Assembly: GCF_001940525.2 (NCBI RefSeq)
Contig: NZ_CP019437.1
Location: 1,152,501 to 1,216,500, forward strand
Origin: Thioclava nitratireducens
GTDB lineage: Bacteria > Pseudomonadota > Alphaproteobacteria > Rhodobacterales > Rhodobacteraceae
Reading direction: 5' to 3'
DNA: 64,000 bases
The position numbers and the translations under genes were made by a program. This document shows positions 40,343-59,790 of the stretch, in pieces (the stretch's first letter is position 1; each line of letters opens with the position of its first letter). The notes beneath the pieces are model-generated. The model saw only the letters and a list, made by a program, of their open reading frames with translations, was not told the DNA's origin and searched no databases.

Positions 40343-40367
40343 AATGCGCCGCAATGTAATCGGTTCC
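40343..40367 (-). promoter_or_regulatory. Near-consensus EcfG-type promoter for glgX-treZY
   Basis: On the minus strand GGAAC-N16-CATT, one base off the EcfG consensus GGAAC-N16-CGTT, 59 bases before the glgX start. Trehalose genes are frequent EcfG targets, which adds some weight. Confidence 0.4.
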
Positions 40368-40468
40368 TGAGCGTGACACGCAAAAACCGGAGGCGATCGA
40401 GCTGGCGATCGTGCCCAGCCGGGCTGCGTCATATGCCGTAGCCGTGAATTCTGTCGGGGAAACTTCAA

Positions 40469-40493
40469 GGAACTCCGCCATACCCCCCGCGTT
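40469..40493 (+). promoter_or_regulatory. EcfG-type general-stress promoter for katA
   Basis: GGAAC (40469-40473), 16 bases, CGTT (40490-40493): exact match to the EcfG promoter of alphaproteobacteria. It ends 36 bases before the catalase start, the right distance for a short leader. Confidence 0.7.
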
Positions 40494-40529
40494 TCGGAAC
40501 CATTATTCTCCAATATCAGAGGTTCCGAC

Positions 40530-42044
40530 ATGACGAACGACAAGCGCGGACGCCCCGCCACCACAGACGGGGGCGCCCCCGTCCAAAGTCTCGAACATTC
40601 GCTCACGGTCGGTTCCGACGGTCCGATCGTTCTGAACGATCACTACCTCATCGAACAGATGGCGAATTTTAACCGCGAACGTATTCCGGAGCGTCAGCCG
40701 CACGCCAAGGGCTCGGGCGCGTTCGGTTATTTCGAGGTCACGGGCGACGTCTCGAAATACACCAAGGCGAAAGTGTTTCAGCCGGGTGCGAAGACCGACA
40801 TCGTCGCGCGCTTTTCCACAGTGGCTGGCGAGCGCGGCAGCCCCGACACATGGCGCGACCCGCGCGGCTTCTCGGTGAAGATGTATACCGAGGACGGCAA
40901 TTTCGACATGGTGGGCAACAACACCCCGATCTTCTTCGTGCGCGACCCGCTGAAGTTCCAGAGCTTCATCCGAAGCCAGAAGCGCCGCGCAGATAACGGG
41001 TTGCGCGATCACGACATGCAGTGGGATTTCTGGACCCTCTCGCCCGAAAGCGCGCATCAGGTGACCTATCTGATGGGCGATCGCGGCATCCCGCGCACCT
41101 GGCGCGAGATGAACGGCTATTCGAGCCACACCTATTCGCTCGTCAACGAAGCCGGCAAGATGTTCTGGGTGAAGTTCCACTTCAAGACCGACCAAGGCGA
41201 CGGCAACGCCCATTTCACGCAGGACGAAGCCGATCAGATGGCTGGCGCCGATAGCGACTTTCACCGCCGCGACCTGTTCAACGCGATCGCCGAAGGCAAC
41301 CATCCGAGCTGGACGCTGTATTTCCAGATCATGCCCTTCGAGGATGCCAAGACCTATCGCATCAACCCCTTCGACCTGACCAAGATCTGGCCGCACGAAG
41401 ACTACCCGCTGATCGAGGTCGGCAAGATGGTTCTCGACCGCAATCCCACCGATTTCCACACCGAGATCGAGCAGGCGGCCTTCGAGCCCAACAACATGGT
41501 GCCCGGCGTCGGTCTCTCGCCCGACAAGATGCTTCTGGCGCGGGGCTTCTCCTATGCCGATGCGCATCGCGCGCGGCTCGGGGTGAACTACAAGCAGATC
41601 CCGGTGAACAAGCCGCAAAGCGAGGTCAACGCCTATACCAAGGACGGCGAGATGCGGGTGAACAAGTCGGAAGACCCGGTCTATTTCCCGAATTCCTACG
41701 GCGGTCCGGAGGCGCATCCGCAGCAGGCCGAGGCCGGCCTCTGGTATGCCGATGGCGAGATGGTGCGCGAGGCCTACAGACAGCGCGAGGATGACGACGA
41801 CTGGAGCCAGGCGGGCGCGTTGGTGCGCGAGGTGATGGATGATGCGGCGCGCGAGCGTTTCGTGACCAACGTCACCGGACACCTCTGCGATGGCGTCAGC
41901 GAGAAGGTGCTGCAGCGGGCGTTTGAGTACTGGCGTAACGTCGATGGTGACATTGGCGCTCGGATCGAGAAAGCGGTCCGCGACAAGCTGGGCGGTGAAT
42001 CGAAAGCGCCGGGCATGGCCTCGGCCAAGAGCATCAGCGGCTGA
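40530..42044 (+). CDS. katA: Monofunctional heme catalase, small-subunit clade
   Basis: A 504-residue catalase. Active-site His58 ([10 protein letters not shown]), Asn130 ([10 protein letters not shown]) and proximal heme ligand Tyr342 ([14 protein letters not shown]) are present. Length and NADPH-site sequence fit the small-subunit clade 3. It removes hydrogen peroxide, which amine oxidase and other flavoenzymes of the window would generate. AGAGG precedes the ATG. An EcfG-type promoter lies upstream and a strong terminator follows, so it is a single-gene unit in the general stress response. Confidence 0.96.
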
Positions 42045-42066
42045 GCCGGTCGTCTACGAGAACGGG

Positions 42067-42095
42067 AAAAGGCGGGGGGTCGGCCCCGCCTTTTT
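42067..42095 (+). terminator. Intrinsic terminator of katA
   Basis: AAAAGGCGGGG and CCCCGCCTTTTT flank a short loop, 22 bases after the stop. The A-run on the left also makes it usable from the minus strand for the deaminase gene. Confidence 0.88.
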
Positions 42096-42124
42096 GCTGT
42101 CACGCTCACTGTCTGCAGGAGGCA

Positions 42125-42592
42125 TCATTCCTCGCCGTCGGCATAGAGCGCGACGACGTCTTCTTCCAGCACGCCGCCGATCGCCTCGAAAGCCCCGCCC
42201 GCAGTGCGGAATTCCGACAGTGTCAGGTCGGGGAAGACGAAATATTTTTCGGCGACGTTTTCCTTCTGCGCGCCGAAAATGATCCGCGTGATCCCGGCGA
42301 AGCGCGCTGCCGAGAGGCACATTTCGCAGGGCTGCAGGGTGGTGAGCAACACGCAGCCATCGAGCGACGGGTCGTTCTGCGCGCGTGTCGCCTTCGCAAT
42401 CGCGACGATCTCGGCATGGCGGGTCGGATCGCAGTCGAGATGCACCTCGTTCTCGCCTTCGGCGATGATCTCCCCGTCGCGCAGGATCGCGGCGGCGATC
42501 CCCGCCTTGCCCGGTTCTTGTGCGGCTTCTTTGGCCTTGGCGATCAAACGGGCCATCGCCTCGCGTTCGGTCGGGGTCGGTTGCTCGGGCAT
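42125..42592 (-). CDS. Nucleoside/nucleobase deaminase (CDA fold)
   Basis: A 155-residue zinc deaminase. RHAEIVAI supplies His and the catalytic Glu, and LQPCEMCLSA the two zinc Cys. The C-terminus with EKYFVFPDLTLSEF is not that of tRNA adenosine deaminase TadA; guanine deaminase or a specialised cytosine/nucleoside deaminase fits better. Convergent with katA. An exact EcfG-type promoter lies 60 bases upstream on the same strand, so it is probably a stress gene, perhaps for damaged or salvaged bases. Substrate open. Confidence 0.8.
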   Translation of the reverse strand: MPEQPTPTEREAMARLIAKAKEAAQEPGKAGIAAAILRDGEIIAEGENEVHLDCDPTRHAEIVAIAKATRAQNDPSLDGCVLLTTLQPCEMCLSAARFAGITRIIFGAQKENVAEKYFVFPDLTLSEFRTAGGAFEAIGGVLEEDVVALYADGEE

Positions 42593-42651
42593 GGGTCGGT
42601 CCTTTCGGCGGTCTGAGAATGAGAGGCGGGCAGGGATGGCGCGCAGGGACG

Positions 42652-42676
42652 AACGCCCGCAGCTGCGCGCTGTTCC
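42652..42676 (-). promoter_or_regulatory. EcfG-type promoter for the deaminase gene
   Basis: Minus strand GGAAC (42676-42672), 16 bases, CGTT (42655-42652), exact consensus, 59 bases before the start codon at 42592. It is back-to-back with another exact copy reading the other way at 42722. Confidence 0.7.
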
Positions 42677-42721
42677 CCGCGCGCGAGTGCGACCAATCCC
42701 ACACGCATGCCGATTTTTTCC

Positions 42722-42746
42722 GGAACCCATGTCGACATTCGGCGTT
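42722..42746 (+). promoter_or_regulatory. EcfG-type promoter reading into a gene-poor stretch
   Basis: GGAAC (42722-42726), 16 bases, CGTT (42743-42746), exact consensus on the plus strand. The next recognisable plus-strand gene starts only at 43120, leaving a leader or unknown transcript of about 365 bases. Confidence 0.6.
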
Positions 42747-43119
42747 AGGCAGGACTTACAGGTGACCGAAAGGCGCACCGCGAAGCTGCTGCGTGTTCGT
42801 GGGGTCCAAGCCTCCACGGGGCGAATCGGGTGGAGCTTTCAGGTGCGGTGACGTGTCCGGAAGCGGAAATCCGGCCTCTCCCCCGTGTGAGGCTGCCCTC
42901 GCGCTCCCTCTTGCCATCGTGACCTGCAAGGGCTGAGCGGGTTTCAAGAGATCACAACCGTTCAGATGACCTTGAGGCAAAGGCATCTGTCGGCAAGTCG
43001 TCGCTGACAACTCGGCATTTGGCTGCCGGTTCCATCGATGGAACCCGGGCCCGCCCTTTTGTTCCGTCCCGAAATTTCGAATTTGCGCCCTTCGATACGA
43101 ATTTGAAGGGACATCTATC
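42747..43119 (+). other. 373-base region without a clear gene, downstream of a stress promoter
   Basis: No frame here looks like a protein gene by composition; the best short one is a GTG-started 29-codon frame at 42762-42851 without a strong ribosome site. Features are a small CCGGA/TCCGG stem near 42858 and a perfect 18-base palindrome at 43028-43045. It may hold a small RNA, a very small protein gene or a long leader of the DUF882 gene. Confidence 0.4.
43028..43045. promoter_or_regulatory. Perfect 18-base palindrome upstream of the DUF882 gene
   Basis: GGTTCCATCGATGGAACC reads the same on both strands without any spacer. It lies 75 bases before the start codon of the DUF882 gene. Likely a dimeric-repressor operator or hairpin; the binding protein is unknown. 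Confidence 0.45.
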
Positions 43120-43659
43120 ATGGCAAAGGCAACGGGTCTGGCTCGACGCGAGTTTCTCCTGGGCGCGGCGGGCGTACTTGCAACCCCCTACATCGTCACC
43201 CCGGCACAGGCAGCAGGTCAGACGGACGAGCGTCGCCTGAGCTTCCACAACCCCCATACCAACGAGAATTTCGACGCGGTCTATTTCTCGAAGGGGCAAT
43301 ATGACGAGCAGGCGATGCGCGAGTTTTATCGGATCGCCCGCGACTGGCGTCAGGAGAAGGAGGTGAAGATCGACAACCGCACGATCAACATCGCCTACAA
43401 CATGCAGAAGCTCCTCGAGCAGAGCACGCCGCTGATGCTGGTGTCGGGCTATCGCACGCCCAAGACGAACCGGCTGGTGCATGGCGCGACGCACAGCTTC
43501 CATATGCGCGGCGAGGCGCTCGACATCACGCACCCGCATGTCTCGACCAGCATGCTGCACAAGGTGGCCCTGCGTATCCGTGGCGGCGGTGTCGGCTACT
43601 ATCCGAGCGAGCATTTCGTGCATGTCGATTGCGGACCCGTCCGCACCTGGCGCGGCTGA
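43120..43659 (+). CDS. Tat-exported DUF882 (MepK/YcbK-like) murein peptidase family protein
   Basis: A 179-residue protein: twin-arginine signal (LARREFLLGAAGVLATP), then the DUF882/M15-like domain. Zinc-ligand residues are visible in HSFHMRGEALDI (His, Asp) and FVHVDCGPVRTW (His). E. coli YcbK/MepK, in the same family, cuts peptidoglycan cross-links made by L,D-transpeptidases. An L,D-transpeptidase gene lies at 57698-58450 in this window but not adjacent. The ATG has a GAAGGGA ribosome site. Confidence 0.85.
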   Translation: MAKATGLARREFLLGAAGVLATPYIVTPAQAAGQTDERRLSFHNPHTNENFDAVYFSKGQYDEQAMREFYRIARDWRQEKEVKIDNRTINIAYNMQKLLEQSTPLMLVSGYRTPKTNRLVHGATHSFHMRGEALDITHPHVSTSMLHKVALRIRGGGVGYYPSEHFVHVDCGPVRTWRG

Positions 43660-43897
43660 GCGCAAGCGCCACGCGCGTCTCGAACGGCATCGGCGCGGTG
43701 CGCTGTGTCCCTGCCTTCACTAAACCGGAACGAGGGCAGGGCGTCGCGCCGCGCTGACGCCTCGACACCCGAGACGGTTCCCTCTGCTCGCGAAGTTTTC
43801 ACGAAAATTTAGTGCCTCGCGCCGTGTGCGCCCTACGTGAAGGTCGGCCAACAAGCGCCGCGCGGGCGCTCACCGATAAAACGGCGAGGAGGAACTC

Positions 43898-44371
43898 ATG
43901 AAATTGAAGATCAACGGCAAGTCCGTCGACGTGCAGTCCGGCCCGGATACCCCGCTCCTATGGGTGATCCGCGATGAGCTGGGCATGACCGGCACGAAAT
44001 TCGGCTGCGGGATCGCGCAATGCGGCGCCTGTTCGGTGCTGCTCGACGGGACCGTGCAGCGCAGCTGCGTGCTGCCGGTCAGCGCGGTGGGCGACAGTGA
44101 AGTCACCACCATCGAAGAGATCGAGAACGACCCCGTCGGCAAGCGTGTCGTTGAGGCGTGGGTCGACAAGGAAGTGCCGCAATGCGGCTATTGCCAATCG
44201 GGTCAGGTGATGGCGGCGACCTCGCTGCTGAAGTCGAACGACAAGCCCACCGAAGATGACATCACGGCAGCTATGACCAACCTGTGCCGCTGCGGCACCT
44301 ACAACGCGATCAACGATACGATCGCCTCGATTGCCGGTACCGATGCAGCGAAAGCGGGGGATGCGCAATGA
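43898..44371 (+). CDS. 2Fe-2S subunit of a molybdenum hydroxylase (IorA type)
   Basis: A 157-residue electron-transfer subunit. The plant-type 2Fe-2S cluster is bound by CGIAQCGACSVLLDG plus a later Cys (RSCVLP), and the second cluster by CGYCQSGQV and CRCG. It passes electrons from the molybdenum subunit encoded next, whose ATG overlaps this stop (ATGA). GAGGAGG lies before the start. Isoquinoline/aldehyde oxidoreductases have this two-subunit form without a FAD subunit. Confidence 0.93.
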   Translation: MKLKINGKSVDVQSGPDTPLLWVIRDELGMTGTKFGCGIAQCGACSVLLDGTVQRSCVLPVSAVGDSEVTTIEEIENDPVGKRVVEAWVDKEVPQCGYCQSGQVMAATSLLKSNDKPTEDDITAAMTNLCRCGTYNAINDTIASIAGTDAAKAGDAQ

Positions 44372-46632
44372 ACGACCACGATCCCAAGATTTCCGATCCC
44401 GGCTACCCGACCGGCGCGCCCGAGAACGTCTCGCGTCGCCGTTTCCTGCTGGCTTCGGCCGGTATCACCGCGGGCTCGCTCGTGCTGGGCTTCGGCCTGA
44501 GCGTCGTGCCCAACAAGGCTGCGGCTGCCGCGCAGGAGATGCCGCCCGGCGCCAACGTCCCGGCCTTCCTCGAGCTGCGCAAGGACGGCAAGGTCCGTCT
44601 GTTGAGCCCCTTCAACGAAGGCGGGCAGGGCGTCTTCACCGCGATGGCACAGATCGTGGGCGAGGAAATGGACGTCGCCCCCGACAGCTTCATCGTCGAG
44701 AACGCACCCGCAGGCAGCGATTACCTCGTGGTCTACGGCAAGATGCGGATCACCGGCGGCTCGATGTCGGTGCGCACCAGCTACGACACGATGCGCAAGC
44801 TGGGCGCGGCTGCCCGGCAGATGATGCTGGAAGCGGCGGCGAAGAAGCTCGACGCGCCGGTGTCCGAACTGTCGACCGAGCCAGGCAAGGTGGTCCACAA
44901 GGGCTCCGGCAAGTCGGTGGGCTACGGCGAGCTGGCGGGCGATGCGCTCGACCAGGAAGTGCCCAGCCCGGATTCCGTGACCCTGAAAGACCCGAAAGAC
45001 TTCAAGTGGATCGGCGAGCCTGTGAAGCGCGTCGACGTCTACGAGAAATCGACCGGCAAGGCGATGTATGCGATGGATGCCAAGGTCGACGGCATGCTCC
45101 ACGCAGCCGTCCAGCACGCACCGCGTCTGGGGCTGAAACCCGGCGATATCAGCAACCTCGACGAGGTGAAGGGCATGGCCGGCGTCATGTCGGTGCATAA
45201 GCTCGACGGCGCGGTGGCTGTCGTGGCCGAGCGCTTCTGGGACGCGAAAACGGCGGTCGAAGCCGCCAAGGTCGACTGGCAGGAGCCGAGCGAGGAGGAG
45301 AAGTCCAAAATCCGCTACATGCCCGCCGATTTCTCGACCGAGGAGTTCGCCAAGCAACTGGCCAACACCAAGGGCGACGGCACCGAGGCCGAGAGCGAAG
45401 GCGACATCAAGTCGGGCTTCGACGGGGCAGCGAAGACGGTCGATGCGACCTACCAGAGCCAGTATCTGCACCACGCCCAGATCGAACCAGCCTCGACGCT
45501 GGCGCGGTTCAACGAGGATGGCACGCTCGACATCTGGCTGCCCAACCAGGCGCCCGAGCAGTTCCAGACCCAGATCGCCGATGCGGCGGGGATCAAGCCC
45601 GAGCAGGTGAAGGTCAACTCGCCGATGCTGGGTGGTTTCTTCGGGCGGCACTTCCTGTACCCGTCGGCCAACCCCTTCCCGCAGGCGGTCCAGCTTGCGA
45701 AGGAGGTCGGCAAGCCGATCAAGGTGATCTGGACGCGCGAGCAGGAATTCCTGCGCGACCCGCTACGCCCGATGGCGGCGGTGCGTTTCCGTGGCGCGCT
45801 GGATAAGAACGGCATGCCGGTGGCGCTGGAGGCGATCTCCGCCTGCGAAGGCCCGACCGAGGCGCTGAACGGCCATAACCCCGACAAGGTCGATGCGATG
45901 GCCGTCGAAGGGCTGACCGGCAAGAGCTACGCGATCCCGAACCGCCGCATTGCGCAGAACTATGTCGAGAACCCGACCTCGCTCGCCTATTGGCGCTCGG
46001 TCGGCCATTCGATGAACGACTTCTTCTACGAGGCTTTCCTCGACGAGATGGCCGATGCGGGCGGGCAGGACCCCTATGAGCTGCGCATGAAGCTGCTCGA
46101 AGGGAACGAGCGTCTGACAAATCTGCTGAAAGCGGTCGGCGATCTGTCGGGCGGCTGGAAGCGTGGTCCCTTCGATGCCGACGACGGCACCCGCCGCGCC
46201 CGCGGTGTCGCGATGGCCTCGCCCTTCGGCAGCGAGGCTGCGGCGATTGCCGAAGTCTCGATCCAGGACGGCAAGATCGTGGTGCATGACGTCTGGGACG
46301 TGCTCGACCCGGGCAGCATCGTGAATCCATCGATCATCAAGGCGCAGATCATGGGTGCTGCGACCCTCGGCACCTCGGAGGCGTTGATCGAAGAGGTCGT
46401 CTACAAGGATGGCAAGCCGACGGCGCGCAACTTCGACTACTACCCGATCCTCGGGGGCGCGCGGGCGCCGCGCATCCATGCGAAGGTGATCGAGAGTGGC
46501 GCGAAGATGGGGGGCGTGGGCGAGCCGCCGCTGCCCGCCGTGCCGCCGGCGATCGCGAACGCGGTCTCGGTGCTGATCGGGCAGCGCGTGCGTTCGATGC
46601 CGATGGACAAGCTCGACCTGAAGAAGGGCTGA
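44368..46632 (+). CDS. Molybdopterin-binding subunit of a xanthine dehydrogenase-family enzyme (IorB type), Tat-exported
   Basis: A 754-residue large subunit with its own twin-arginine signal (VSRRRFLLASAGITAGSLVLG), so the folded dimer is exported to the periplasm with the small subunit. Molybdopterin-cytosine-dinucleotide regions are recognisable (LSPFNEGGQGVFTAMAQIVGEEM; GGFFGRHFLYPSANPF; VGEPPLPAVPPAIANAV with the catalytic Glu). Typical substrates of this group are aldehydes or N-heterocycles such as isoquinoline. FAD subunit absent as usual; the cytochrome c partner or the CoxF/XdhC-type maturation gene often found nearby is not in the window. Substrate open. Confidence 0.9.
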   Translation: MNDHDPKISDPGYPTGAPENVSRRRFLLASAGITAGSLVLGFGLSVVPNKAAAAAQEMPPGANVPAFLELRKDGKVRLLSPFNEGGQGVFTAMAQIVGEEMDVAPDSFIVENAPAGSDYLVVYGKMRITGGSMSVRTSYDTMRKLGAAARQMMLEAAAKKLDAPVSELSTEPGKVVHKGSGKSVGYGELAGDALDQEVPSPDSVTLKDPKDFKWIGEPVKRVDVYEKSTGKAMYAMDAKVDGMLHAAVQHAPRLGLKPGDISNLDEVKGMAGVMSVHKLDGAVAVVAERFWDAKTAVEAAKVDWQEPSEEEKSKIRYMPADFSTEEFAKQLANTKGDGTEAESEGDIKSGFDGAAKTVDATYQSQYLHHAQIEPASTLARFNEDGTLDIWLPNQAPEQFQTQIADAAGIKPEQVKVNSPMLGGFFGRHFLYPSANPFPQAVQLAKEVGKPIKVIWTREQEFLRDPLRPMAAVRFRGALDKNGMPVALEAISACEGPTEALNGHNPDKVDAMAVEGLTGKSYAIPNRRIAQNYVENPTSLAYWRSVGHSMNDFFYEAFLDEMADAGGQDPYELRMKLLEGNERLTNLLKAVGDLSGGWKRGPFDADDGTRRARGVAMASPFGSEAAAIAEVSIQDGKIVVHDVWDVLDPGSIVNPSIIKAQIMGAATLGTSEALIEEVVYKDGKPTARNFDYYPILGGARAPRIHAKVIESGAKMGGVGEPPLPAVPPAIANAVSVLIGQRVRSMPMDKLDLKKG

Positions 46633-46656
46633 GCCCGTCCGGACGGAAAGATTTGG

Positions 46657-46684
46657 GGGAGGCGGCGCGATCCGCCTCCCTTTT
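46657..46684 (+). terminator. Intrinsic terminator of the molybdenum hydroxylase operon
   Basis: GGGAGGCGG and CCGCCTCCC flank six bases, followed by TTTT. The T-run touches the stop codon of the convergent MarR gene, so the two transcripts meet here. Confidence 0.85.
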
Positions 46685-47159: not shown

Positions 47160-47163
47160 TATA

Positions 47164-49121: not shown

Positions 49122-49982
49122 TCAGTCGCGGTTCACCTGCACGACGCCGGTCATGTTCTCATCGCCATGGCCGGCCTCGCTCGCCCGCGCGAAGAGACGT
49201 TTGGCGGCTTCGGTCATCGGCATCCGCGCTTCTCCGCCCTCGGCGATGGCATAGCGGAAATCCTTCGAGATCAGGTCGACCGGGAATTGCGGGGTGAAAT
49301 CCGAGCGCTGCATCGTGCCGGTGATATAGGGCGCGTTCGGCGTCCAGATCGGGGTGGAGGAGAGCGCCTCCAGCGCAAGATCGATATCCATGCCGCCGCG
49401 CTCCAGCATCGGAATGATCTCGGCCCAGGCCGCGACCTGAACGCCCAGCATGGCGTTCGTCGCGAGCTTCATTCGCGCGCCCATGCCCCACGTGCCGACA
49501 TGATGCTGTGCCTTGGCGAGCGGCTCGAGCACGTCATGCACGCGTTTGGCGGTCTCGGCCTCACCGCCGAGGAAATAGACCAGCGCGCCGTTCTCGGCCT
49601 GCGGTAGCGTGCCCGATACCGGCGCTTCCAGAAAGGTCAGCCCGCGCTCGCGGGCGAATTCGCCCAGCTCTGCCGCACCTTCGGGCGTAATGGTCGAGCT
49701 TTCGATTGCGACGGAACTTTCCGGAAGACCTGCGAAAGCGCCCGTGTCCGGGTCGCACCAGACCTCGCGCGAGACATCGGTGTCGCGCAGCATCGAGATC
49801 GTGAACTCGGCGGCTGCGGCGGCATCGCGCGGGGTTTCCGCGCCGGTGGCTCCGGCCTCGATCAGCGGGTCGCAGCGCTCCGGCGTCCGGTTCCAGACGA
49901 CAAGATCGTGGCCCGCATCCAGAAGGGTTCGCGCCATCCGCGAGCCCATCGCTCCCATGCCAAGAAATGCGATTTTCGCCAT
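49122..49982 (-). CDS. Beta-hydroxyacid dehydrogenase (3-hydroxyisobutyrate dehydrogenase family)
   Basis: A 286-residue NAD(P) oxidoreductase. IAFLGMGAMGSRMARTLLDAGH binds the dinucleotide; EAPVSGTLPQAENG is the substrate motif and KLATNAMLGVQVAAWAE holds the catalytic Lys. Family members act on 3-hydroxyisobutyrate, tartronate semialdehyde, glyoxylate or succinic semialdehyde. AGGAG six bases before the ATG sets the start. Convergent with the hydroxylase gene and divergent from ku; a GGAAC-N17-CGTT sequence lies upstream. Substrate open. Confidence 0.88.
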   Translation of the reverse strand: MAKIAFLGMGAMGSRMARTLLDAGHDLVVWNRTPERCDPLIEAGATGAETPRDAAAAAEFTISMLRDTDVSREVWCDPDTGAFAGLPESSVAIESSTITPEGAAELGEFARERGLTFLEAPVSGTLPQAENGALVYFLGGEAETAKRVHDVLEPLAKAQHHVGTWGMGARMKLATNAMLGVQVAAWAEIIPMLERGGMDIDLALEALSSTPIWTPNAPYITGTMQRSDFTPQFPVDLISKDFRYAIAEGGEARMPMTEAAKRLFARASEAGHGDENMTGVVQVNRD

Positions 49983-50124
49983 GCTCTGCTCCTGTTCGTG
50001 ATGCTGTTGCTGACCGAATGCGAGGCGCCTTCGCAAGGTTCCGAGAGCGGCAGGCACATGCTGGTGACCGCAAGGGGGCCAAAGGCGCTTCCATCGGTAT
50101 GGAGATAAATCCGACAGGGGGGCG

Positions 50125-50150
50125 AACGCTCGTTCTCCGGCCTGTGTTCC
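50125..50150 (-). promoter_or_regulatory. Possible EcfG-type promoter (17-base spacer) for the dehydrogenase gene
   Basis: Minus strand GGAAC (50150-50146), 17 bases, CGTT (50128-50125). The spacer is one longer than the other sites and the start codon is 142 bases away, so support is weaker. Confidence 0.35.
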
Positions 50151-50295: not shown

Positions 50296-50320
50296 GGAAC
50301 CCCGCGCGGCAGCGGGCGTT
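50296..50320 (+). promoter_or_regulatory. EcfG-type general-stress promoter for ku-ligD
   Basis: GGAAC (50296-50300), 16 bases, CGTT (50317-50320), exact consensus, ending 29 bases before the ku start. In Sinorhizobium meliloti some ku genes are known members of the RpoE2/EcfG regulon, which agrees. Confidence 0.7.
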
Positions 50321-50349: not shown

Positions 50350-51267
50350 ATGGCCTCACGCGCGATCTGGAAAGGCCAGCTCAGACTGTCGCTGGTCAGC
50401 ATCCCCGTCGAAATCCACTCCGCGACCAAATCCGGCGCGCGACTGTCGTTCCGGCAAATCCATGGGCCTTCGGGCAAGCGTGTCCATTATGAGAAGACCG
50501 TCCCCGGCATCGGGCCCATCGACGCCGACGAGATTCTCAAGGGCTACGAGCTCGGCGACGATGAATATCTGCTGCTGGAGCCCGAAGAGATCGACGCGAT
50601 CAAGCTGGAAACAAAGAAGACGCTTGAGCTTGTGCAATTCGTCGACGCGTCCGAAATCCCACCGCTTTATTACGACCGGCCCTATTACGTCGTGCCGACC
50701 GACGATCTGGCGCAGGATGCCTACCGGGTGGTGCGCGATGCGCTGCGGCAATCGAAGAAGGTGGGGCTTGGCCAACTGGTGATGCGCGGCAAGGAATATC
50801 TCTGCGCGCTGCGGCCCTGCGGCGACGGCATCCTGCTGGAGACTCTGCATTATGCCGACGAGATCCGCGAAGCCGACCCGCTGTTCTCCGACATCGAGGA
50901 CGAACCTGCGGACAAAGAGCTTCTGGAGGTCGCCACTCAGTTGATCGACCGCAAGACCGACAGCTTCGACGCCTCCGCCTTCACCGATCACTACGACGCG
51001 GCTTTGCGCGATCTGATCGACCGCAAACGCAAGTCGAAGAAGACGCCCCGCGCCAAGGCGGGCGAGGATGACAGCAGCAGAGGCGGCGATAACGTGGTCG
51101 ACCTGATGTCGGCGCTGCAGGACAGCCTCAAGGCCGATGGCAGCGACAAATCCGGGGGCAAATCGACGGGTCGCAAATCGTCATCGAAAACCTCCGGCGC
51201 GAAGTCATCCGGGTCGAAATCCAGCAAATCCTCCGGCGCGAAGTCCTCAACCAAGAAGTCGGCGTGA
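50350..51267 (+). CDS. ku: Ku DNA end-binding protein
   Basis: A 305-residue bacterial Ku. ASRAIWKGQLRLSLVSIPVEIHSAT is the typical N-terminus; the Ku core fills about 1-230 and DALRQSKKVGLGQLVMRGKEYLCALRP lies in it. A Lys/Ser/Gly repeat tail (about 265-305, KSSGAKSS units) follows, probably binding DNA. AAGGAG six bases before the ATG sets the start. Ku homodimers thread on broken ends and recruit LigD, encoded next (TGATG overlap). Gene pair makes a non-homologous end-joining system. Confidence 0.95.
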   Translation: MASRAIWKGQLRLSLVSIPVEIHSATKSGARLSFRQIHGPSGKRVHYEKTVPGIGPIDADEILKGYELGDDEYLLLEPEEIDAIKLETKKTLELVQFVDASEIPPLYYDRPYYVVPTDDLAQDAYRVVRDALRQSKKVGLGQLVMRGKEYLCALRPCGDGILLETLHYADEIREADPLFSDIEDEPADKELLEVATQLIDRKTDSFDASAFTDHYDAALRDLIDRKRKSKKTPRAKAGEDDSSRGGDNVVDLMSALQDSLKADGSDKSGGKSTGRKSSSKTSGAKSSGSKSSKSSGAKSSTKKSA

Positions 51268-53675
51268 TGGGAAGCCTCGATCGTTATCTCGAGATGCGCG
51301 ACTTCGCGCAGACGCCAGAGCCCGATGGCGGCACCGCCTCGGGCCATCTCGCGCCGCGCTATTCGATCCAGAAACACGACGCGACGCGCACCCATTTCGA
51401 TCTGCGCCTCGAATGGGAGGGCGTGCTGCTGTCCTGGGCGATCACCAAGGGACCGTCTTTCGATCCGGGTGAAAAGCGGCTCGCGGTGCGGACCGAGGAT
51501 CACCCGCTCGACTATCTCACCTTCGAGGGGACGATCCCGAAGGACAACTATGGCGCGGGCACGGTGATGCTGTGGGATCTGGGGCATTGGCAGCCGCTGA
51601 TCCCGGTCGGCAAGGCGCTCAAGAAAGGGCATCTGCACCTGCGCCTGCATGGCGCGCGACTGACAGGCGAGTGGCACCTGATCCGCATGAAAACCGAAGG
51701 CAAGCGCGAGAACTGGCTGCTGACGAAGGCGGAGGACGCGGCCAGCGGCGCGCGCGATCCAGTGGCGCGCTATCGCCGCTCCGTTATCAGCCAGCGCACG
51801 ATGCGCGAGATCGCCGCCGACAAGCCGCCCGTCGAGACGCAAGGCGGCAAACGCCCTGGCTTCGCCAAGCCGCAGCTGGCGACCCTGTCGGACAAGATGG
51901 TCGCGGGCGAGGGGTGGTGGCACGAGCTGAAATTCGACGGCTACCGGGCACTGATCGCGCTTGGAGACGGCGGCCCGCGTGTCTTCACACGCAACGGCAA
52001 CGATTGGACGGATCGCTTCGAAGGCCTGCTGCCCGCCTTGGCTGAGACCGATTGCGACAGCGCCCTGATCGACGGCGAGATCGTCGCAGGCGCAGGTCTC
52101 GACGGGTTCTCGGAATTGCAAAAGGCGATCACGGCAGGCGGGCCGTTCCGCTTCTACGGATTCGATATCCTGTCGCGCGACGGCGAGGACCTGCGCAAGG
52201 CGCCGCTCTCCGAACGCCGCGAAGTGCTGGAGGAGGTGATGAAGCCGCTCCCCGCGCTGGGGCCTGCGCAGCTCTCCCCGGTGATCTCCAAAGACCCCGA
52301 GGGTGCCTTCGAGACGATCTGCAAAGCGGGCGGCGAGGGACTGATCGCAAAGCGCATCGACGCACCATATCGCGGGACCCGCTCCAAATCGTGGATGAAG
52401 GTCAAATGCGAGCGCCGCGACGAGTTCGTCATTCTCGGCTGGCAGGAAAGCGACAAGCGTGGCCGGCCCTTCGCCTCGCTCGCGCTGGGGACCGCCGAGG
52501 GCGACGGCTGGCGCTATATCGGCAAGGTCGGCACCGGCTTCGACGAGGATCAGGCGGAGGCGTTGGCCAAGGCGATGAAACCGCTCGCCCGCAAGACCGC
52601 GCCCGCTGATGTCGAGGCATCGGAGGCCAAGGGCATGCACTGGATCACTCCCGAACTGGTAGCCGAGATTCGCTATGCCGAGCGCACCGGGGGCGACCGG
52701 TTGCGGCATGCGGTCTTCCTCGGGCTGCGCGAGGACAAGCCCGCGCGCACGGTACGGCTGGATAACGACGCGCCTTCCGAGGAGCGCCCGAACGGCGCGG
52801 GGATCGGGATTTCCTCGCCCGAGCGGGTGGTATTCGAGGGCGCCGGCTATACCAAGCTCGATGTCGCGCGTTATTACGAGGCGATGGCCGATCGCATCCT
52901 GCCGCATCTTGCCGAGCATCCGGTGTCGCTGCTCCGGCTGCCCGAAGGTCTGGGCGGCGAGCGCTTCTTCCAGAAACACGCGGGCCGGGGCTTTCCCGAC
53001 GGGATCGCGAATGTCGAGATCACCGAGAGTGACGGCAAGACCGCGCAGTACATGATGATCCGCACAGCGGAGGGGCTGGTCGCGGCCGCGCAGATGGGCA
53101 CGATAGAGTTCCACATCTGGGGCAGCCGCGTCGATCGGCTGGAGCGGCCCGACCGGCTGGTCTTCGACCTCGACCCCGACGAGGGATTGGATTTCGCCGG
53201 GGTCAAAGATGCGGCCTTCGAGATCCGCGATCTGCTGGCCGAGTTGGACATGCCGAGCTGGCCGCTCTTGTCCGGCGGCAAGGGTATCCACGTGACGGTG
53301 CCGCTCCGGCGCAGTGCCGGATGGGACACGGTCAGGCTTTTTGCGCGGGTCTTCTCGCATCTTCTCGTCGCGCGGTCGCCCAAACGCTATACCGCCGAAA
53401 TGTCGAAGTCGAAGCGGAAGGGGCGAATTTTCGTCGACTGGCTGCGCAACGGCGAGGGAGCGACAGCGATCGCGCCCTATTCGCTGCGCGCACGGCCCGG
53501 TGCGCCGGTCGCGATGCCGGTCTCGTGGGACGAGCTGAAGAAAGTCCGCAAGGCCAACGCCTTCGATCTGGGCGCGGCGCTGGAGCGTGATGCAGAGATC
53601 GCGTTTCCCGATGCCGTCTCGATTAGCCAGGGTCGGGTCGACAAGCTCAAAGATATGCTCGACGCCTCGGAGTGA
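51267..53675 (+). CDS. ligD: DNA ligase D, three-domain end-joining enzyme
   Basis: An 802-residue protein in the order phosphoesterase - ligase - polymerase. Phosphoesterase (about 15-160): RYSIQKHDATRTHFDLRLEW with zinc/manganese His and Asp. Ligase (about 195-490): adenylation motif ELKFDGYRALI, then EGLIAKRIDAPYRGTRS and WMKVKCERRDEFVI. Primase-polymerase (about 520-800): VVFEGAGYTKLDVARYYE and the catalytic VFDLDPDEGLDF. All three active sites look intact. Works with Ku to trim, fill and join ends. Follows ku with a one-base overlap. Confidence 0.95.
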   Translation: MGSLDRYLEMRDFAQTPEPDGGTASGHLAPRYSIQKHDATRTHFDLRLEWEGVLLSWAITKGPSFDPGEKRLAVRTEDHPLDYLTFEGTIPKDNYGAGTVMLWDLGHWQPLIPVGKALKKGHLHLRLHGARLTGEWHLIRMKTEGKRENWLLTKAEDAASGARDPVARYRRSVISQRTMREIAADKPPVETQGGKRPGFAKPQLATLSDKMVAGEGWWHELKFDGYRALIALGDGGPRVFTRNGNDWTDRFEGLLPALAETDCDSALIDGEIVAGAGLDGFSELQKAITAGGPFRFYGFDILSRDGEDLRKAPLSERREVLEEVMKPLPALGPAQLSPVISKDPEGAFETICKAGGEGLIAKRIDAPYRGTRSKSWMKVKCERRDEFVILGWQESDKRGRPFASLALGTAEGDGWRYIGKVGTGFDEDQAEALAKAMKPLARKTAPADVEASEAKGMHWITPELVAEIRYAERTGGDRLRHAVFLGLREDKPARTVRLDNDAPSEERPNGAGIGISSPERVVFEGAGYTKLDVARYYEAMADRILPHLAEHPVSLLRLPEGLGGERFFQKHAGRGFPDGIANVEITESDGKTAQYMMIRTAEGLVAAAQMGTIEFHIWGSRVDRLERPDRLVFDLDPDEGLDFAGVKDAAFEIRDLLAELDMPSWPLLSGGKGIHVTVPLRRSAGWDTVRLFARVFSHLLVARSPKRYTAEMSKSKRKGRIFVDWLRNGEGATAIAPYSLRARPGAPVAMPVSWDELKKVRKANAFDLGAALERDAEIAFPDAVSISQGRVDKLKDMLDASE

Positions 53676-53684
53676 CTGCCTCCC

Positions 53685-55690: not shown

Positions 55691-55724
55691 CTTTTCTCCT
55701 TCGCGGCGGATACAGCGCACGAAT

Positions 55725-55741
55725 CTTAAGACTGACTTAAG
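55725..55741. promoter_or_regulatory. PmrA/QseB-box-like tandem repeat between the two-component system and dsbD
   Basis: CTTAAG-ACTGA-CTTAAG, an exact match to the enterobacterial PmrA-box form YTTAAG-N5-YTTAAG. It lies 34 bases before the response-regulator start on one side and 22 before the dsbD start on the other, so it overlaps both leaders or promoters. Confidence 0.65.
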
Positions 55742-55763
55742 CTTCGCCCGCGATCCGGCCAAC

Positions 55764-57701
55764 ATGAACGCAAAGGCTCTTTCCCGTCTATCGCTGCGCA
55801 CCCTCTGGGGCGTGTTTCTGATCTCGCTGCTGTTGCCCGGCCTCGCTGCGGCGCAAAGCTTCGATCTTCTGAAGCCCAAGGGAGGCAGCGGTCCGCTGTC
55901 GCCCGAAGCGGCGTTTCAGGTCGAGACCGAGTGGCAGGATGACGGGACGCTCGCCGTCTCGTTTGACATCGCGCCGGGCTATTACCTCTATCGCGATCAC
56001 CTGACGGTCAGCGCCGAGGGCGGCGATGCGCCGGTGATCGAGACGCAGCCGGGCGAAATGAAGGATGATCCGAATTTCGGCACGGTCGAGGTCTGGCATG
56101 ATCACACCGAGGCCGTGGTGAGCGACATCACCGGCCCCTTCACGCTGCACTGGCAGGGCTGCGAAGAAAAGGGGCTTTGCTACCCGCCGCAAAGCCGCGA
56201 GATCGTGCCGCCGGATGGGGCCGCGACTGCGTCTGCATCCGGCGCGGCGCAGTCGAACCAAGCCGCCGGGGTGCCCGATTATGCGCGGAGCGACGCGCCT
56301 GCCTCGTCTTCCGCGTCTGCGGCGTCCTCCGAGGCCGAAAGCCCTTCGCCGGCTGCATCCAATTCCGAAGAAAGCGGGAGCGAACTGAGCCTCTCTTCCG
56401 ATGACGGGCTCGTCGCAGGGATAGCGGCGAAAGGCGGCTGGGCGCTGGTGGTGGCCTCGTTCTTCGGCTTCGGTCTGCTTCTGGCCTTCACCCCTTGCGT
56501 TCTGCCAATGGTGCCGATCGTGGCCGGGATGCTCGGCGCGCAAGGAAAAGACCTGACGCCTGCGCGCGGGCTCGCACTGACCGGAACCTATGTGTTGGCG
56601 ATGGCGGTGGCCTTCGGGCTTCTGGGCATCGTGGCAGCGTGGTCTGGGCAGAACCTGCAATTCCTGATGCAGGCCCCTCCGACGGTGATCGCGCTCGCCC
56701 TGCTGTTTGCCGTCCTCGCGCTGTCCTCCTTCGGGTTGTTCGAGCTGCGCCTGCCGCAGGCGCTGACCAACAAGGTGAGCTCCGTGCAGGGGCGGCGCGG
56801 CACGCTTGCGGGGGCGGCGATCCTCGGCTTCACGTCGACGCTGATCGTCGGACCTTGCGTGACGGCCCCGCTGGCCGGGGCCTTCCTCTATATCGCGCAG
56901 ACGGGTGACGCCGGGCTCGGGGCCTCGGCGCTGTTTGCGCTGGGGTTGGGACAGGGCGTGTTGCTGATGGCAGTGGGGCTCTTCGGTTCGGCGATCCTGC
57001 CGCGCATGGGCGAATGGATGGTCGGCGTGAACCGCGCCTTCGGCTTCGTCTTCCTGGGCGTGGCGATCTGGCTGCTGAGCCGCGTCATCGCCGGTCCTGC
57101 GATCCTCGCGCTCTGGGCGCTGCTGCTGATCGGCGCAGGCGTGGCCCTGGGCGGTCGCGACCGGTTCGGACCGGAAAGCTCGGGCTTGCGCCGCACCGGG
57201 GGCGCGCTTGGCGTCGCGGCACTGCTGGCCGGTGCCATCGAGGGTATCGGTGCGGCAAGCGGGGCCAGCGATCCACTGCGGCCGCTTGCTCCCTTCGCAG
57301 CGAGCCAGACCGTCGCGGCTGCCTCGTCGGACGTGCTGACGGAGGATGACTTCACCCATGTCGAGACGCCCGAAGCGCTCGACGCCGCACTGGCCGCTGC
57401 GAAGGGCGCGCCGGTGATGCTGATCACGACCGCCGAATGGTGCACCGAATGCGCGACCATCGCGCGCGAGGTGATCCCCGACCCGCGGGTGCAGGCCGCA
57501 CTGCGCGACGTCACGCCCATCGCGGTCGATGTAACCAAAACCGGCGCGCCGCAGCAGGCGCTTCTGAAACGGTTGGGCGTGATCGGCCCGCCGACGCTGA
57601 TCTTCCTCAACCCAGATCACACGGAGGCGCAGGGCACCCGCCTGATCGGGGATGTCACCGCGCCGAAACTCACGACCTCGCTTTCGGAGATCGCTCAATG
57701 A
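55764..57701 (+). CDS. dsbD: Thiol:disulfide interchange protein DsbD
   Basis: A 645-residue membrane reductase with all three parts: signal peptide, N-terminal domain with C133 and C139 (GCEEKGLCYPP), a Ser/Ala-rich linker (about 155-215), an eight-helix membrane domain with C245 (TPCVLPMVPI) and C365 (GPCVTAPLAG), and a C-terminal thioredoxin domain with C560-x-x-C563 (WCTEC). It carries electrons from cytosolic thioredoxin to periplasmic thiols. The ATG at 55764 gives a standard signal peptide; no good ribosome site is visible. The stop overlaps the L,D-transpeptidase start (ATGA). Confidence 0.94.
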   Translation: MNAKALSRLSLRTLWGVFLISLLLPGLAAAQSFDLLKPKGGSGPLSPEAAFQVETEWQDDGTLAVSFDIAPGYYLYRDHLTVSAEGGDAPVIETQPGEMKDDPNFGTVEVWHDHTEAVVSDITGPFTLHWQGCEEKGLCYPPQSREIVPPDGAATASASGAAQSNQAAGVPDYARSDAPASSSASAASSEAESPSPAASNSEESGSELSLSSDDGLVAGIAAKGGWALVVASFFGFGLLLAFTPCVLPMVPIVAGMLGAQGKDLTPARGLALTGTYVLAMAVAFGLLGIVAAWSGQNLQFLMQAPPTVIALALLFAVLALSSFGLFELRLPQALTNKVSSVQGRRGTLAGAAILGFTSTLIVGPCVTAPLAGAFLYIAQTGDAGLGASALFALGLGQGVLLMAVGLFGSAILPRMGEWMVGVNRAFGFVFLGVAIWLLSRVIAGPAILALWALLLIGAGVALGGRDRFGPESSGLRRTGGALGVAALLAGAIEGIGAASGASDPLRPLAPFAASQTVAAASSDVLTEDDFTHVETPEALDAALAAAKGAPVMLITTAEWCTECATIAREVIPDPRVQAALRDVTPIAVDVTKTGAPQQALLKRLGVIGPPTLIFLNPDHTEAQGTRLIGDVTAPKLTTSLSEIAQ

Positions 57702-58450
57702 CCCTCACCCGCCTCGTCCCCTTTGCCCTGATCGCACTCGCGGCCTGTGCACCCGAGCCGCCTGCCTCTAACCCACAGCCCGCGCCGCAAGCGCCGCAGC
57801 TCAGCGCACGCGTAAAAGCGATCTACAGCGCGATGGAGGACGACGGGCGCACGATCCCCGCGGTGAAGCCCGAGTATCTGAGCGAGGAGAAAGCGCGGCA
57901 GGAAGTCGATTACTGGACCGACGAGCCGCCCGGCACCATCGTGGTCGACCCTTGGGCGCGCAAGCTCTACCTCGTGCAGAAGAATAACCGCGCGCTACGC
58001 TACACCGTCGCGGTGGGCGAGGACGGGCGCGGCTTTTCCGGCAAGGGACGCATCCCGTATCAGCGGGACTGGCCAAGCTGGACGCCGACGCAGAGCATGA
58101 TCAAGGAGGATCCCGAGCTTTACGGACCGGTCAAGGATGGGCTCGAAGGCGGGTTGGATAATCCCTTGGGCGCGCGGGCGCTTTATATCCACCGCGGGAA
58201 CAAGGATACGCTCTACCGCATTCATGGAACGATGGATGACAGTTCCATCGGCAAGGCGACCTCGGCGGGCTGCATACGGCTGTTCAATCAGGACATCATC
58301 GACCTCGCCGACCGCGTCCGCTCTGGCACGCATGTCGTCGTGCTGACCCGTGCCGAGAGCGGCAAGGGCACGGTGCCGCCGGGCCAGCCGCTGCCGCCCG
58401 TTCCCTACTCACCCGAAGATTTCCCCCAGACCACAGGAGACAATACATGA
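57698..58450 (+). CDS. L,D-transpeptidase lipoprotein (ErfK/YbiS/YcfS/YnhG family)
   Basis: A 250-residue lipoprotein (lipobox ALAAC, Cys 17). The YkuD domain (about 70-230) ends in HGTMDDSSIGKATSAGCIRLF, where C192 is the catalytic Cys and the upstream His completes the site. Such enzymes form 3-3 cross-links or attach proteins to peptidoglycan, and their Cys must stay reduced. Its place between dsbD and a DsbA-like gene, with ATGA overlaps on both sides, suggests redox control of this thiol. Confidence 0.9.
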   Translation: MTLTRLVPFALIALAACAPEPPASNPQPAPQAPQLSARVKAIYSAMEDDGRTIPAVKPEYLSEEKARQEVDYWTDEPPGTIVVDPWARKLYLVQKNNRALRYTVAVGEDGRGFSGKGRIPYQRDWPSWTPTQSMIKEDPELYGPVKDGLEGGLDNPLGARALYIHRGNKDTLYRIHGTMDDSSIGKATSAGCIRLFNQDIIDLADRVRSGTHVVVLTRAESGKGTVPPGQPLPPVPYSPEDFPQTTGDNT

Positions 58451-59061
58451 TCGATCGCCGGAATTTTCTCACCCTTGCCGGCGTCGCCGCAGGCTCCACG
58501 CTGATCCTGCCGACGGCGAGCCTTGCCGAGGTCGACATCTCGCCGGACGCGGTGTTCCACGATCCGGTCGCGCCCGCGATTGGCAACCCGGATGGCGATA
58601 TCACGCTGGTCGAGTATTTCGACTACCAGTGTCCCTACTGCAAATCGAACCACCCGGTGGTCGAGAAGGTGACCCGCGAAGACGGCAATTTGCGCGTCGT
58701 GATGAAGGACTGGCCGATCTTCGGCGCGCCCTCCGTCTATGCCTCGCAGCTGGTGCTCGGCGCGCAGAGCATGGGCAAATACAAGGAAGGGCTCGAGGCA
58801 CTGATGGCGACGGAAGGAAAGCTGTCGAACGATCTGATCGACAAGACACTCTCCGACGCCGGTGTCGATCCGGACAAGGCGATGGCGGGCTACAAGGCCA
58901 ACCGCAAGGAGATCGACGCGCTGCTGTCGCGTAACGATGCGCAGGCAGTCGCGATCGGGCTGCGCGGCACGCCCGCCTATATCGTCGGGCGCGACGTCTA
59001 TCCCGGCGCGGTCGATGCCGACACGCTGCGCAAGGCGATCAGCGACGTGCGCAAGGCCTGA
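58447..59061 (+). CDS. DsbA-family thioredoxin-fold protein
   Basis: A 204-residue exported protein. The signal peptide has a Tat-like start (DRRNFLTLAGVAAGS, cleaved after ASLA). The active site is C62-P-Y-C65 in DYQCPYCKSNHP, with the cis-Pro loop RGTPAYIVG, like DsbA/DsbG/BdbD oxidoreductases. ATG overlaps the transpeptidase stop. Third gene of the dsbD operon; could be kept reduced by DsbD (isomerase-like) or act as oxidase. A strong terminator follows. Confidence 0.9.
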   Translation: MIDRRNFLTLAGVAAGSTLILPTASLAEVDISPDAVFHDPVAPAIGNPDGDITLVEYFDYQCPYCKSNHPVVEKVTREDGNLRVVMKDWPIFGAPSVYASQLVLGAQSMGKYKEGLEALMATEGKLSNDLIDKTLSDAGVDPDKAMAGYKANRKEIDALLSRNDAQAVAIGLRGTPAYIVGRDVYPGAVDADTLRKAISDVRKA

Positions 59062-59083
59062 GCGGCGCGCTCTACTATGGCAA

Positions 59084-59120
59084 AAAGGCCCCGGGGAGGA
59101 TCATTCCCCGGGGCCTTTCT
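59084..59120. terminator. Bidirectional terminator after dsbA and the SYLF gene
   Basis: A 14-base perfect stem (59084-59097 with 59105-59118) and seven-base loop. Plus strand is followed by CTC after TTT; minus strand reads into TTTTTG. It serves both convergent transcripts. Confidence 0.88.
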
Positions 59121-59158
59121 CATCGCGGGCCTTCCCTCGGCGGGAAGGGCACCGGCGA

Positions 59159-59734
59159 TTAGCTGTTGTCGCCGTCTTTCCAGATGCGCAGGGTGCTGAT
59201 CTTCGCGCCGCCGTTCAGACCCGAGCTGTCGAAGACATAGACGCGCGGATTGCCGGAGGACGCGTTCGCGGTGGCATTGGCGTTTACCACGGTGATGCCT
59301 GCGCCGGCGCCGACATGCCATTCGCCGCCGCTCTGCACTTGCTTGACGGACTTTTTGGTCGGGAAGACGTAGATCTGGCTGGCCTGCTTGGCGCCGATCT
59401 GGAGACCGACCGAGGCTTTGCCGATGTCATAATAGCCTTGGATCTTGCCGTTCTGGACCATGGCACCCGAGCCACCCGAGCCGCCGACGCCGAGGTCGAT
59501 CGTGGTCACTTCGGGGAAGACGAGGACGGCAGCGGAGTCGGTGGCGACTTTCTTGCAGGAATCCTCGAGGCTGGCGCATTGCTTAAGCGCTGCGGCGACC
59601 TGCTGGTCCAGGTCGGGGCGCGGCTGGACGCCCTTCGCGTGGTCGATCGTGGATGCGGGCGTGGCGGCCATCGCCATAGTGCCCATGAGCGATGCGGCAA
59701 TACCAGCGGTCAGGGTGCGAATCTTGGATTGCAT
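59159..59734 (-). CDS. SYLF/YSC84-domain exported protein
   Basis: A 191-residue protein with a Sec signal peptide (cut after AMA), a conserved Cys pair (KQCASLEDSCKK) and the SYLF domain (about 60-190: AAVLVFPEVTTIDLGVGGSGGSGAM, GYYDIGKASVGLQIGAKQ, QIYVFPTKKSVKQV, GAGAGITVV). SYLF proteins bind phosphoinositides in eukaryotes; bacterial ones are periplasmic with unknown function, often stress-induced. AGGAGG six bases before the ATG. An exact EcfG-type promoter lies upstream. Confidence 0.9.
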   Translation of the reverse strand: MQSKIRTLTAGIAASLMGTMAMAATPASTIDHAKGVQPRPDLDQQVAAALKQCASLEDSCKKVATDSAAVLVFPEVTTIDLGVGGSGGSGAMVQNGKIQGYYDIGKASVGLQIGAKQASQIYVFPTKKSVKQVQSGGEWHVGAGAGITVVNANATANASSGNPRVYVFDSSGLNGGAKISTLRIWKDGDNS

Positions 59735-59765
59735 GAGATGCCTCCTTTTCAAATTACGGGAATGA

Positions 59766-59790
59766 AACGAGCCCGCACGGCCCACGTTCC
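59766..59790 (-). promoter_or_regulatory. EcfG-type general-stress promoter for the SYLF gene
   Basis: Minus strand GGAAC (59790-59786), 16 bases, CGTT (59769-59766), exact consensus, ending 31 bases before the start codon. Confidence 0.7.

Follow-up and report, generated by a model that had tools for sequence, protein, structure and literature searches.

Do the closely spaced EcfG-type promoter sites around a catalase gene and a DNA end-joining cassette in Thioclava nitratireducens belong to one stress regulon? The question arises from a stretch of 64,000 nucleotides (nt), denoted here as the window (C1:1152501-1216500 of the 4.24-Mb genome). Gene starts come from a custom gene caller whose training set was the window, where it predicted 59 genes. 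A preliminary description claimed five exact copies of the motif GGAAC-N16-CGTT in this DNA and proposed that katA, ku-ligD, a deaminase gene, a gene for a SYLF-domain protein and an unknown transcript form one stress regulon. All five copies were located (Table 1), and they are very probably promoters of the alphaproteobacterial general stress response (GSR). The proposal of a single regulon is supported, as far as sequence can tell, by the presence of the regulators, by genome-wide enrichment of the motif ahead of genes, and by the conservation of 17 of 19 sites within the genus.

According to the scheme proposed here, stress would lead to phosphorylation of PhyR, which would pull NepR off the sigma factor EcfG, and EcfG-RNA polymerase would then read GGAAC-N16/17-CGTT. 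Targets in the window would be katA (peroxide removal) and ku-ligD (end joining of broken DNA), furthermore a cytosolic deaminase and an exported SYLF-domain protein, two products aptly called poorly understood beforehand. A fifth site, the orphan promoter, would give rise to a long conserved leader or RNA ahead of the gene for a MepK-like peptidoglycan peptidase. The regulon very likely includes a glgX-treZ-treY-like operon as well. Transcription from these sites, its induction by stress and its dependence on EcfG are what we infer from the DNA.

EcfG-type sites in the window and in the genome

The window holds six exact sites, namely the five copies mentioned above and an additional one with N17 spacing ahead of a reductase gene, against a mean of 0.68 and a maximum of 4 in 100 dinucleotide shuffles of the window (N16 and N17 counted jointly). 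Four copies were said to lie 30-60 bases before a start codon, in good agreement with -10-to-ATG distances of 36 (katA), 59 (deaminase gene), 29 (ku) and 31 nt (SYLF gene); downstream of the fifth (42722), the orphan promoter, the next predicted start follows after 373 nt. Five window sites are promoter-like, i.e. outside genes and no more than 150 nt ahead of a start, and none of 200 permutations of the nine-base motif yielded more than one. With one mismatch allowed, 27 sites are found, seven of them promoter-like, which adds a site ahead of glgX and a second one ahead of the reductase gene, compared with 32 sites and no promoter-like one for the reversed motif. The glgX site (GGAAC-N16-CATT, 58 nt ahead of the gene) coincides with position 40343, at which the preliminary description let its cluster begin.

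A scan of the whole genome for the motif near start codons revealed 78 exact N16/17 sites and 64 copies of the reversed motif. Outside predicted genes lie 52/78 and 14/64 of them, respectively (Fisher 1e-7), and 43/78 versus 6/64 are promoter-like (Fisher 5e-9). The median site-to-start distance is 41 nt, with 35 of the 43 promoter-like sites at 20-70 nt. Five of the 43 belong to the window, and 36 of the other 38 genes were scanned with Pfam, leaving aside nepR, identified already, and L044, which is truncated where its stretch ends. The genes downstream encode CsbD, OsmC, BON, hemerythrin, topoisomerase IB, PfpI and a BCCT transporter, further a GT20 trehalose-phosphate-synthase-family enzyme, a GH15/trehalase-like enzyme, DUF1328, DUF3008, cytochrome c and Pyrid_ox_like proteins; six of the 36 had no Pfam match. 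Many belong to the usual GSR repertoire. For part of them this status is described in the available text of two studies on sphingomonads (PMC7083833; PMC6599016). Nine intergenic sites are not followed by a predicted start within 150 nt (L021, L025, L032, L033, L046, L064 and the window site 42722), two of them being arranged back to back (C1:3617483 and 3617510); they may mark additional small RNAs or small genes that were overlooked.

All three regulators, phyR, nepR and ecfG, are present in the classical arrangement, with nepR between phyR (+) and ecfG (-). The PhyR-family anti-anti-sigma factor matches NF006623 with 359 bits (cut-off 240), and the adjacent extracytoplasmic function (ECF) sigma factor matches NF009198 with 332 bits (cut-off 270). 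NepR was recognized by Pfam in a genome search (E 5.9e-15) and has no NCBIfam match; the same Pfam search was positive in one of 14 control genomes (Caulobacter). An EcfG site precedes the nepR start at 34 nt. The surrounding locus (L032, C1:461500-480500) contains nine exact sites in 14 kb, including divergent promoter pairs, and is a predicted general-stress island.

This region is also the densest patch of the genome, with nine sites per 20 kb compared with six in the window. When the 76 sites of the main contig were placed uniformly, at least six sites within any 20 kb occurred in 0.6% of 1000 simulations. The window cluster is thus best regarded as a dense patch of a putative regulon spread over the genome, from which nothing special about the window itself need follow.

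Chance matches in G+C-rich DNA would account for the two window sites far from a start (373 and 142 nt) and for the 26 of 78 genome sites within genes. A chance origin of the window sites was ruled out by the shuffles and by the 200 permuted motifs, none of the latter coming near the observed number, and the retention of sites despite diverging spacers (see below) argues against it as well, so that this explanation is negligible.

Conservation within the genus Thioclava

The genus was sampled with 16 genomes, T. nitratireducens included, of which five possess the deaminase, three Ku, six the MepK-like protein (at least 69% identity), five the SYLF protein and five KatA (both at least 82%). The genes served by the five window promoters have 19 orthologues in the other genomes, and an exact site is retained in 17 of these: 4/4 for katA, 4/4 for the SYLF gene, 2/2 for ku, 4/5 for the orphan promoter and 3/4 for the deaminase gene. 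One exception is the deaminase gene of genome G150, corresponding by its coordinates to the T. atlantica locus L132, where the site carries one mismatch; the other is G157 (MepK-like protein 69% identical), in whose retrieved locus no site was found. The spacers of the 17 exact sites differ from those of T. nitratireducens at 0-10 of 16 positions, and the promoter core is thus conserved while spacers diverge, in a comparison that took exact sites only and has the core fixed by construction.

The neighborhood of ku-ligD differs between Thioclava species (L216, L217, L218), with Ku 97% identical. In G160 and G162, ku-ligD is located in another neighborhood and the homology to the upstream DNA of T. 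nitratireducens begins at the -35 box; because of this, the cassette seems to have moved together with its predicted stress promoter.

Ku, catalases and NepR across the family

In a family sample of 198 genomes, one per genus, NepR was detected in 89 (87 above the Pfam cut-off) and Ku in 21, all of which are NepR-positive. With T. nitratireducens excluded, 20/20 Ku genomes have NepR compared with 88/197 overall (hypergeometric 2.6e-8, kinship ignored). Catalases are likewise enriched with NepR (36/46, kinship ignored; this tally omits five genomes in which all matches were weak, E above 1e-9). A divergent NepR such as that of Rhodobacter sphaeroides (25% identity according to the accessible text of PMC5830050) may escape the search. 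Since Ku is nested within NepR-positive genomes in 21/21 cases, it is suggested that the family keeps end joining where the GSR can switch it on.

A site with at most one mismatch lies upstream of 6/7 katA orthologues (at least 75% identity) and of 13/23 Ku genes, the latter count omitting three truncated loci (L289, L293, L299). For other catalases it was found in 4/13 cases in NepR-positive and in 0/9 cases in NepR-negative genomes. Catalase promoters were inspected in 30 loci among the matches listed, T. nitratireducens and 29 others. Upstream distances refer to the first residue of the protein match, and in several catalases this differs from the real start codon. The numbers for katA, Ku and the other catalases of NepR-positive genomes were each matched by none of 300 permuted motifs.

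Several observations weigh against a common GSR regulon. Besides the 26 exact sites within predicted genes, an IS66 transposase gene has a promoter-like site ahead of it, probably by chance. In the family, 10/23 Ku genes and 9/13 other catalases of NepR-positive genomes lack any site of up to one mismatch in 150 nt. Within the genus, two of the 19 orthologues are devoid of an exact site, and since Ku occurs in only 3/16 genomes and katA, deaminase and SYLF orthologues in 5/16 each, the gene set is variable. GGAAC-type -35 boxes are common to several ECF groups. The sites might on this account be read by an ECF sigma factor other than EcfG, which is considered improbable: a site lies ahead of nepR-ecfG itself, and among the catalase genes of 29 relatives, sites with at most one mismatch occur in 10/20 NepR-positive and in 0/9 NepR-negative cases. 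The motif is moreover identical to the GSR motif described for Sphingopyxis in the available part of PMC7083833. Finally, PhyR of R. sphaeroides is described in the accessible text to play no major role in general stress (PMC5830050).

The deaminase gene as a recurrent EcfG target

In named records, 63 homologous loci were found, with those of Thioclava sp. JE_KL1 and Thioclava sediminum the closest; for Thioclava sp. IC9, a deaminase of 99% identity is on record. Rhodobacterales, Devosia or one alphaproteobacterial metagenome-assembled genome account for 49 loci (L130-L178), of which 18 carry an exact and 27 an exact or one-mismatch site ahead of the predicted start, the exact site of L151 merely 7 nt from a doubtful start. 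Site-bearing genera are Thioclava, Devosia, Sulfitobacter, Pseudosulfitobacter, Sagittula, Profundibacterium, Marivita, Oceaniovalibus, Rubellimicrobium, Palleronia and others. In a reduced set of 46, without the close Thioclava loci L130 and L131 and the contig-edge locus L147, the site is present in 26 (16 exact), compared with a mean of 1.26 and a maximum of 10 for permuted motifs. In the remaining 14 loci (cyanobacteria, SAR116 and others, at most 45% identity), none has it. Ten of the 22 site-less genes overlap a same-strand gene upstream, or adjoin it directly, and can therefore borrow its promoter. The deaminase gene is thus a predicted recurrent EcfG target, which is a new point.

A glyoxalase-like neighbor, judged by its N-terminus, was seen in 12 of the 44 loci (of 49) with neighbor data, and all four such neighbors tested match PF00903. 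Other loci adjoin pdxJ, acpS or lepB, as tested for L134 and L167; homologues inside the pdxJ-acpS-lepB region (L134-L178) often carry their own EcfG site.

The enzyme harbors the zinc motif H-x-E plus P-C-x-x-C of the cytidine-deaminase fold type, with H59, E61, P88, C89 and C92 invariant in 22/22 aligned sequences. Its best solved relative is the guanine deaminase 1wkq (1.2e-17), and it misses the NCBIfam TadA cut-off (57 versus 150 bits). A G(K/R)(A/S/T)GI(A/S)A signature replaces GPFGA of guanine deaminase and GEVPVGA of TadA, and the C-terminal part shows YF-F and GG--E motifs. All 16 genus genomes encode another relative of 33-39% identity, presumably TadA. A function of the deaminase in purine sanitation is a guess.

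Orphan promoter and conserved non-coding stretch

The preliminary description counted an unknown transcript among those under the promoters. The sequence shows a predicted promoter on the plus strand with no near start and conserved non-coding DNA behind it; the transcript would most readily be explained as a long leader of, or a small RNA (sRNA) before, the MepK-like gene. The stretch 42747-43119 is identical to T. sediminum at 330 of 373 positions without gaps, compared with 63-78% in four intergenic pieces and 88-91% in three genes nearby. The distance from promoter to ATG amounts to 373-374 nt in T. nitratireducens and four relatives including G160, and the spacer changes at 0-2 of 16 positions among relatives with an exact core. 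A palindrome in this spacer, ATGTCGACAT (42729-42738), is unchanged in five aligned genomes, while most other spacers of the window promoters vary; it is a possible operator.

Compared with G160, the promoter is identical at 23/25 positions, the preceding 43 alignment columns at 65%, the following 27 at 81%, the next 93 at 62%, and the remaining leader mostly at 81-93% with one stretch of 68%. From column 241 onward, G160 and G152 share 88-100% of positions, perhaps through recombination, which could render G160 less independent as evidence from there on. G160 has neither this katA nor a deaminase orthologue, yet it keeps the orphan promoter, and an assignment of the promoter to either gene was therefore ruled out. 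The idea that 42747-43119 encodes an overlooked small protein was rejected as well: substitutions versus T. sediminum fall on the three codon positions 16, 13 and 14 times and are thus without codon periodicity (P 0.85), and a GTG reading frame of 29 codons is 42 codons long in T. sediminum.

The helices at 42761-42779, 43028-43060 and 43088-43110 have no broken pair in the five aligned genomes, and most of their pairs never vary. The 5' stem-loop (42761-42779) is kept in 5/5 with all changes pair-compatible, and the hairpin at 43088-43110 shows one G-C to G-U change and is otherwise invariant, although certain folds of the T. nitratireducens sequence prefer an alternative pairing. None of the named helices shows two-sided covariation; over the whole alignment, RNAalifold gave an unfavorable covariation term with two-sided changes in 5/170 pairs. 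Fold z-scores of -1.29, -1.16 and, for five pieces, -0.23 to -1.53 leave a stable fold unproven. No paralogue of the region turned up among the retrieved loci, where matches were confined to the region, its orthologues and short fragments (18-23 bases), and a family DNA search with 42640-43119 in 149 genomes returned T. nitratireducens and, in one other genome, a stretch of 39 bases.

Somewhat favored is the reading that the orphan promoter drives the MepK-like gene via a leader of ~365 nt, with a hairpin over the ribosome-binding site holding back translation. The fixed distance to the ATG, also in G160 without this katA and the deaminase orthologue, the conservation reaching up to the start codon, and the masking of the Shine-Dalgarno sequence by the hairpin at 43088-43110 speak for it. 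Against it, the length of 373 nt is atypical compared with the promoter-like sites, a palindrome followed by TTTT lies ~60 nt ahead of the gene, the z-scores are weak throughout (-0.2 to -1.5), and the possible recombination may reduce the weight of G160.

The alternative, which appears less plausible, is a separate sRNA of ~310 nt ending near 43028-43060, a functional analogue of Caulobacter GsrN. GsrN is described, in the accessible text, to combine an EcfG-type promoter, a transcript without protein, and a link to peroxide via catalase mRNA (PMC5869019), and EcfG-driven sRNAs are thus known. An EcfG-type promoter with no start codon nearby is found here too (42722-42746), the gapless non-coding conservation equals that of nearby genes, and the 5' stem-loop is maintained. 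Conversely, the Thioclava RNA may be a MepK-like leader, and its promoter persists in G160, where this katA is absent; Rfam at gathering scores gave no match in the window, GsrN itself not having been compared. No terminator was called, covariation is unfavorable or absent as noted above, and the hairpin of GGTTCCATCGATGGAACC is missing from the best fold of its 58-nt surroundings and present in another fold of the own sequence. The location is ~720 kb from phyR-nepR-ecfG, whereas the available text of PMC5869019 looks for such RNAs beside this locus outside the Caulobacteraceae.

Genes and promoters of the window

The regulon seems to govern the deaminase gene and the conserved non-coding stretch here in addition to the genes for peroxide removal and end joining. 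The features are compiled in Table 1. ku adjoins ligD, and all three LigD domains are present, as in bacterial non-homologous end joining. The reductase gene with its two EcfG-like sites is oriented divergently from ku. The amylase-family genes are taken by us to be glgX-, treZ- and treY-like. One SYLF-domain protein is lipid-binding according to the accessible part of a review (PMC10787603).

Table 1. Predicted features of the window (positions within the window; exact promoters carry GGAAC-N16-CGTT unless stated)
Feature	Position	Strand	Basis
Three consecutive amylase-family genes	34209..40284	-	Pfam, gene calls
Near-consensus EcfG promoter of glgX	40343..40367	-	Kept in L130 and L131, spacers changed
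EcfG promoter of katA	40469..40493	+	Exact in 4/4 genus relatives with katA of at least 82%
katA, catalase	40530..42044	+	PF00199 4e-182
TadA/guanine-deaminase-like deaminase, distinct subfamily	42125..42592	-	PF00383; zinc motif, subfamily signature
EcfG promoter of deaminase gene	42652..42676	-	Exact in 3/4 genus relatives, one mismatch in the fourth
Orphan EcfG promoter, palindrome ATGTCGACAT in spacer	42722..42746	+	Exact core in 4/5 relatives with MepK-like gene
Conserved non-coding leader or small RNA	42747..43119	+	88.5% identical, gapless versus T. sediminum
Perfect palindrome GGTTCCATCGATGGAACC, G+C-rich flank, TTTT; weak terminator candidate	43028..43060	+	
8-bp hairpin over Shine-Dalgarno of MepK-like gene	43088..43110	+	
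M15_2/DUF882 MepK-like peptidase, predicted to be exported	43120..43659	+	PF05951 4e-40; NF053624 168 bits, cut-off 185 missed
3-hydroxyisobutyrate-dehydrogenase-like reductase	49122..49982	-	Pfam/NCBIfam
One-mismatch EcfG-like site, 34 nt ahead of reductase gene	50017..50042	-	
Exact N17 EcfG site, 142 nt ahead of reductase gene	50125..50150	-	
EcfG promoter of ku-ligD	50296..50320	+	Exact core in 2/2 relatives (G160, G162), 9/16 spacer changes
ku	50350..51267	+	TIGR02772 297 bits, cut-off 150
ligD: phosphoesterase, ligase, polymerase domains	51267..53675	+	Pfam/NCBIfam
Exported SYLF-domain protein (Ysc84)	59159..59734	-	PF04366 1e-7; NF049970 92 bits, cut-off 200 missed
EcfG promoter of SYLF gene	59766..59790	-	Exact in 4/4 genus relatives of at least 82%

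Relation to known systems and significance

Stress-inducible end joining is reportedly known from S. meliloti, although no such paper was found, and a paper on Rhodobacter capsulatus is said to deal with another partner-switching system. In Sphingopyxis granuli TFA, two katA catalases, ku-ligD, csbD and osmC are described as direct GSR targets with the motif GGAAC-N16-CGTT (PMC7083833). T. nitratireducens resembles this strain in the motif and in the sites before nepR-ecfG, katA, ku-ligD, csbD and osmC, whereas S. granuli TFA, unlike Thioclava, possesses two EcfG paralogues. In Sphingomonas melonis Fr1, a motif lies 30 nt before the Ku start, and catalases, glgX, treZ and topoisomerase IB are lowered in an ecfG mutant; its motif (GGAAC-N17-20-GTT) is looser than that of Thioclava (PMC6599016). 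A regulon joining katA and ku-ligD is therefore not new in kind, as both reports, in the portions available, document it for sphingomonads. Neither paper mentions 'deaminase' or 'SYLF' in its main text.

R. sphaeroides, also of the Rhodobacterales, shows the same locus arrangement as Thioclava, with a NepR-like protein just 25% identical to NepR; according to the accessible text, it was left open whether the missing role of PhyR extends to the wider branch (PMC5830050). In contrast to R. sphaeroides, Thioclava has a broad canonical promoter set.

New points are the deaminase gene as a predicted recurrent EcfG target, the nesting of Ku within NepR-positive genomes (kinship ignored) and the conserved orphan leader. 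The first of these provides a regulatory context for a little-studied deaminase, together with a list of genera for its study. It is conceivable, if rather speculative, that an EcfG-controlled regulatory RNA of ~310 nt, maintained in a Thioclava subgroup independently of katA and the deaminase, and a dedicated stress deaminase, perhaps a sanitizer of damaged purines and often glyoxalase-adjacent, would add to the GSR a layer restricted to the Rhodobacterales and certain relatives. For this order, Thioclava represents a testable counter-case to R. sphaeroides, whose PhyR was the subject of the sole PhyR-centered Rhodobacterales study found (PMC5830050, as far as its text was available).

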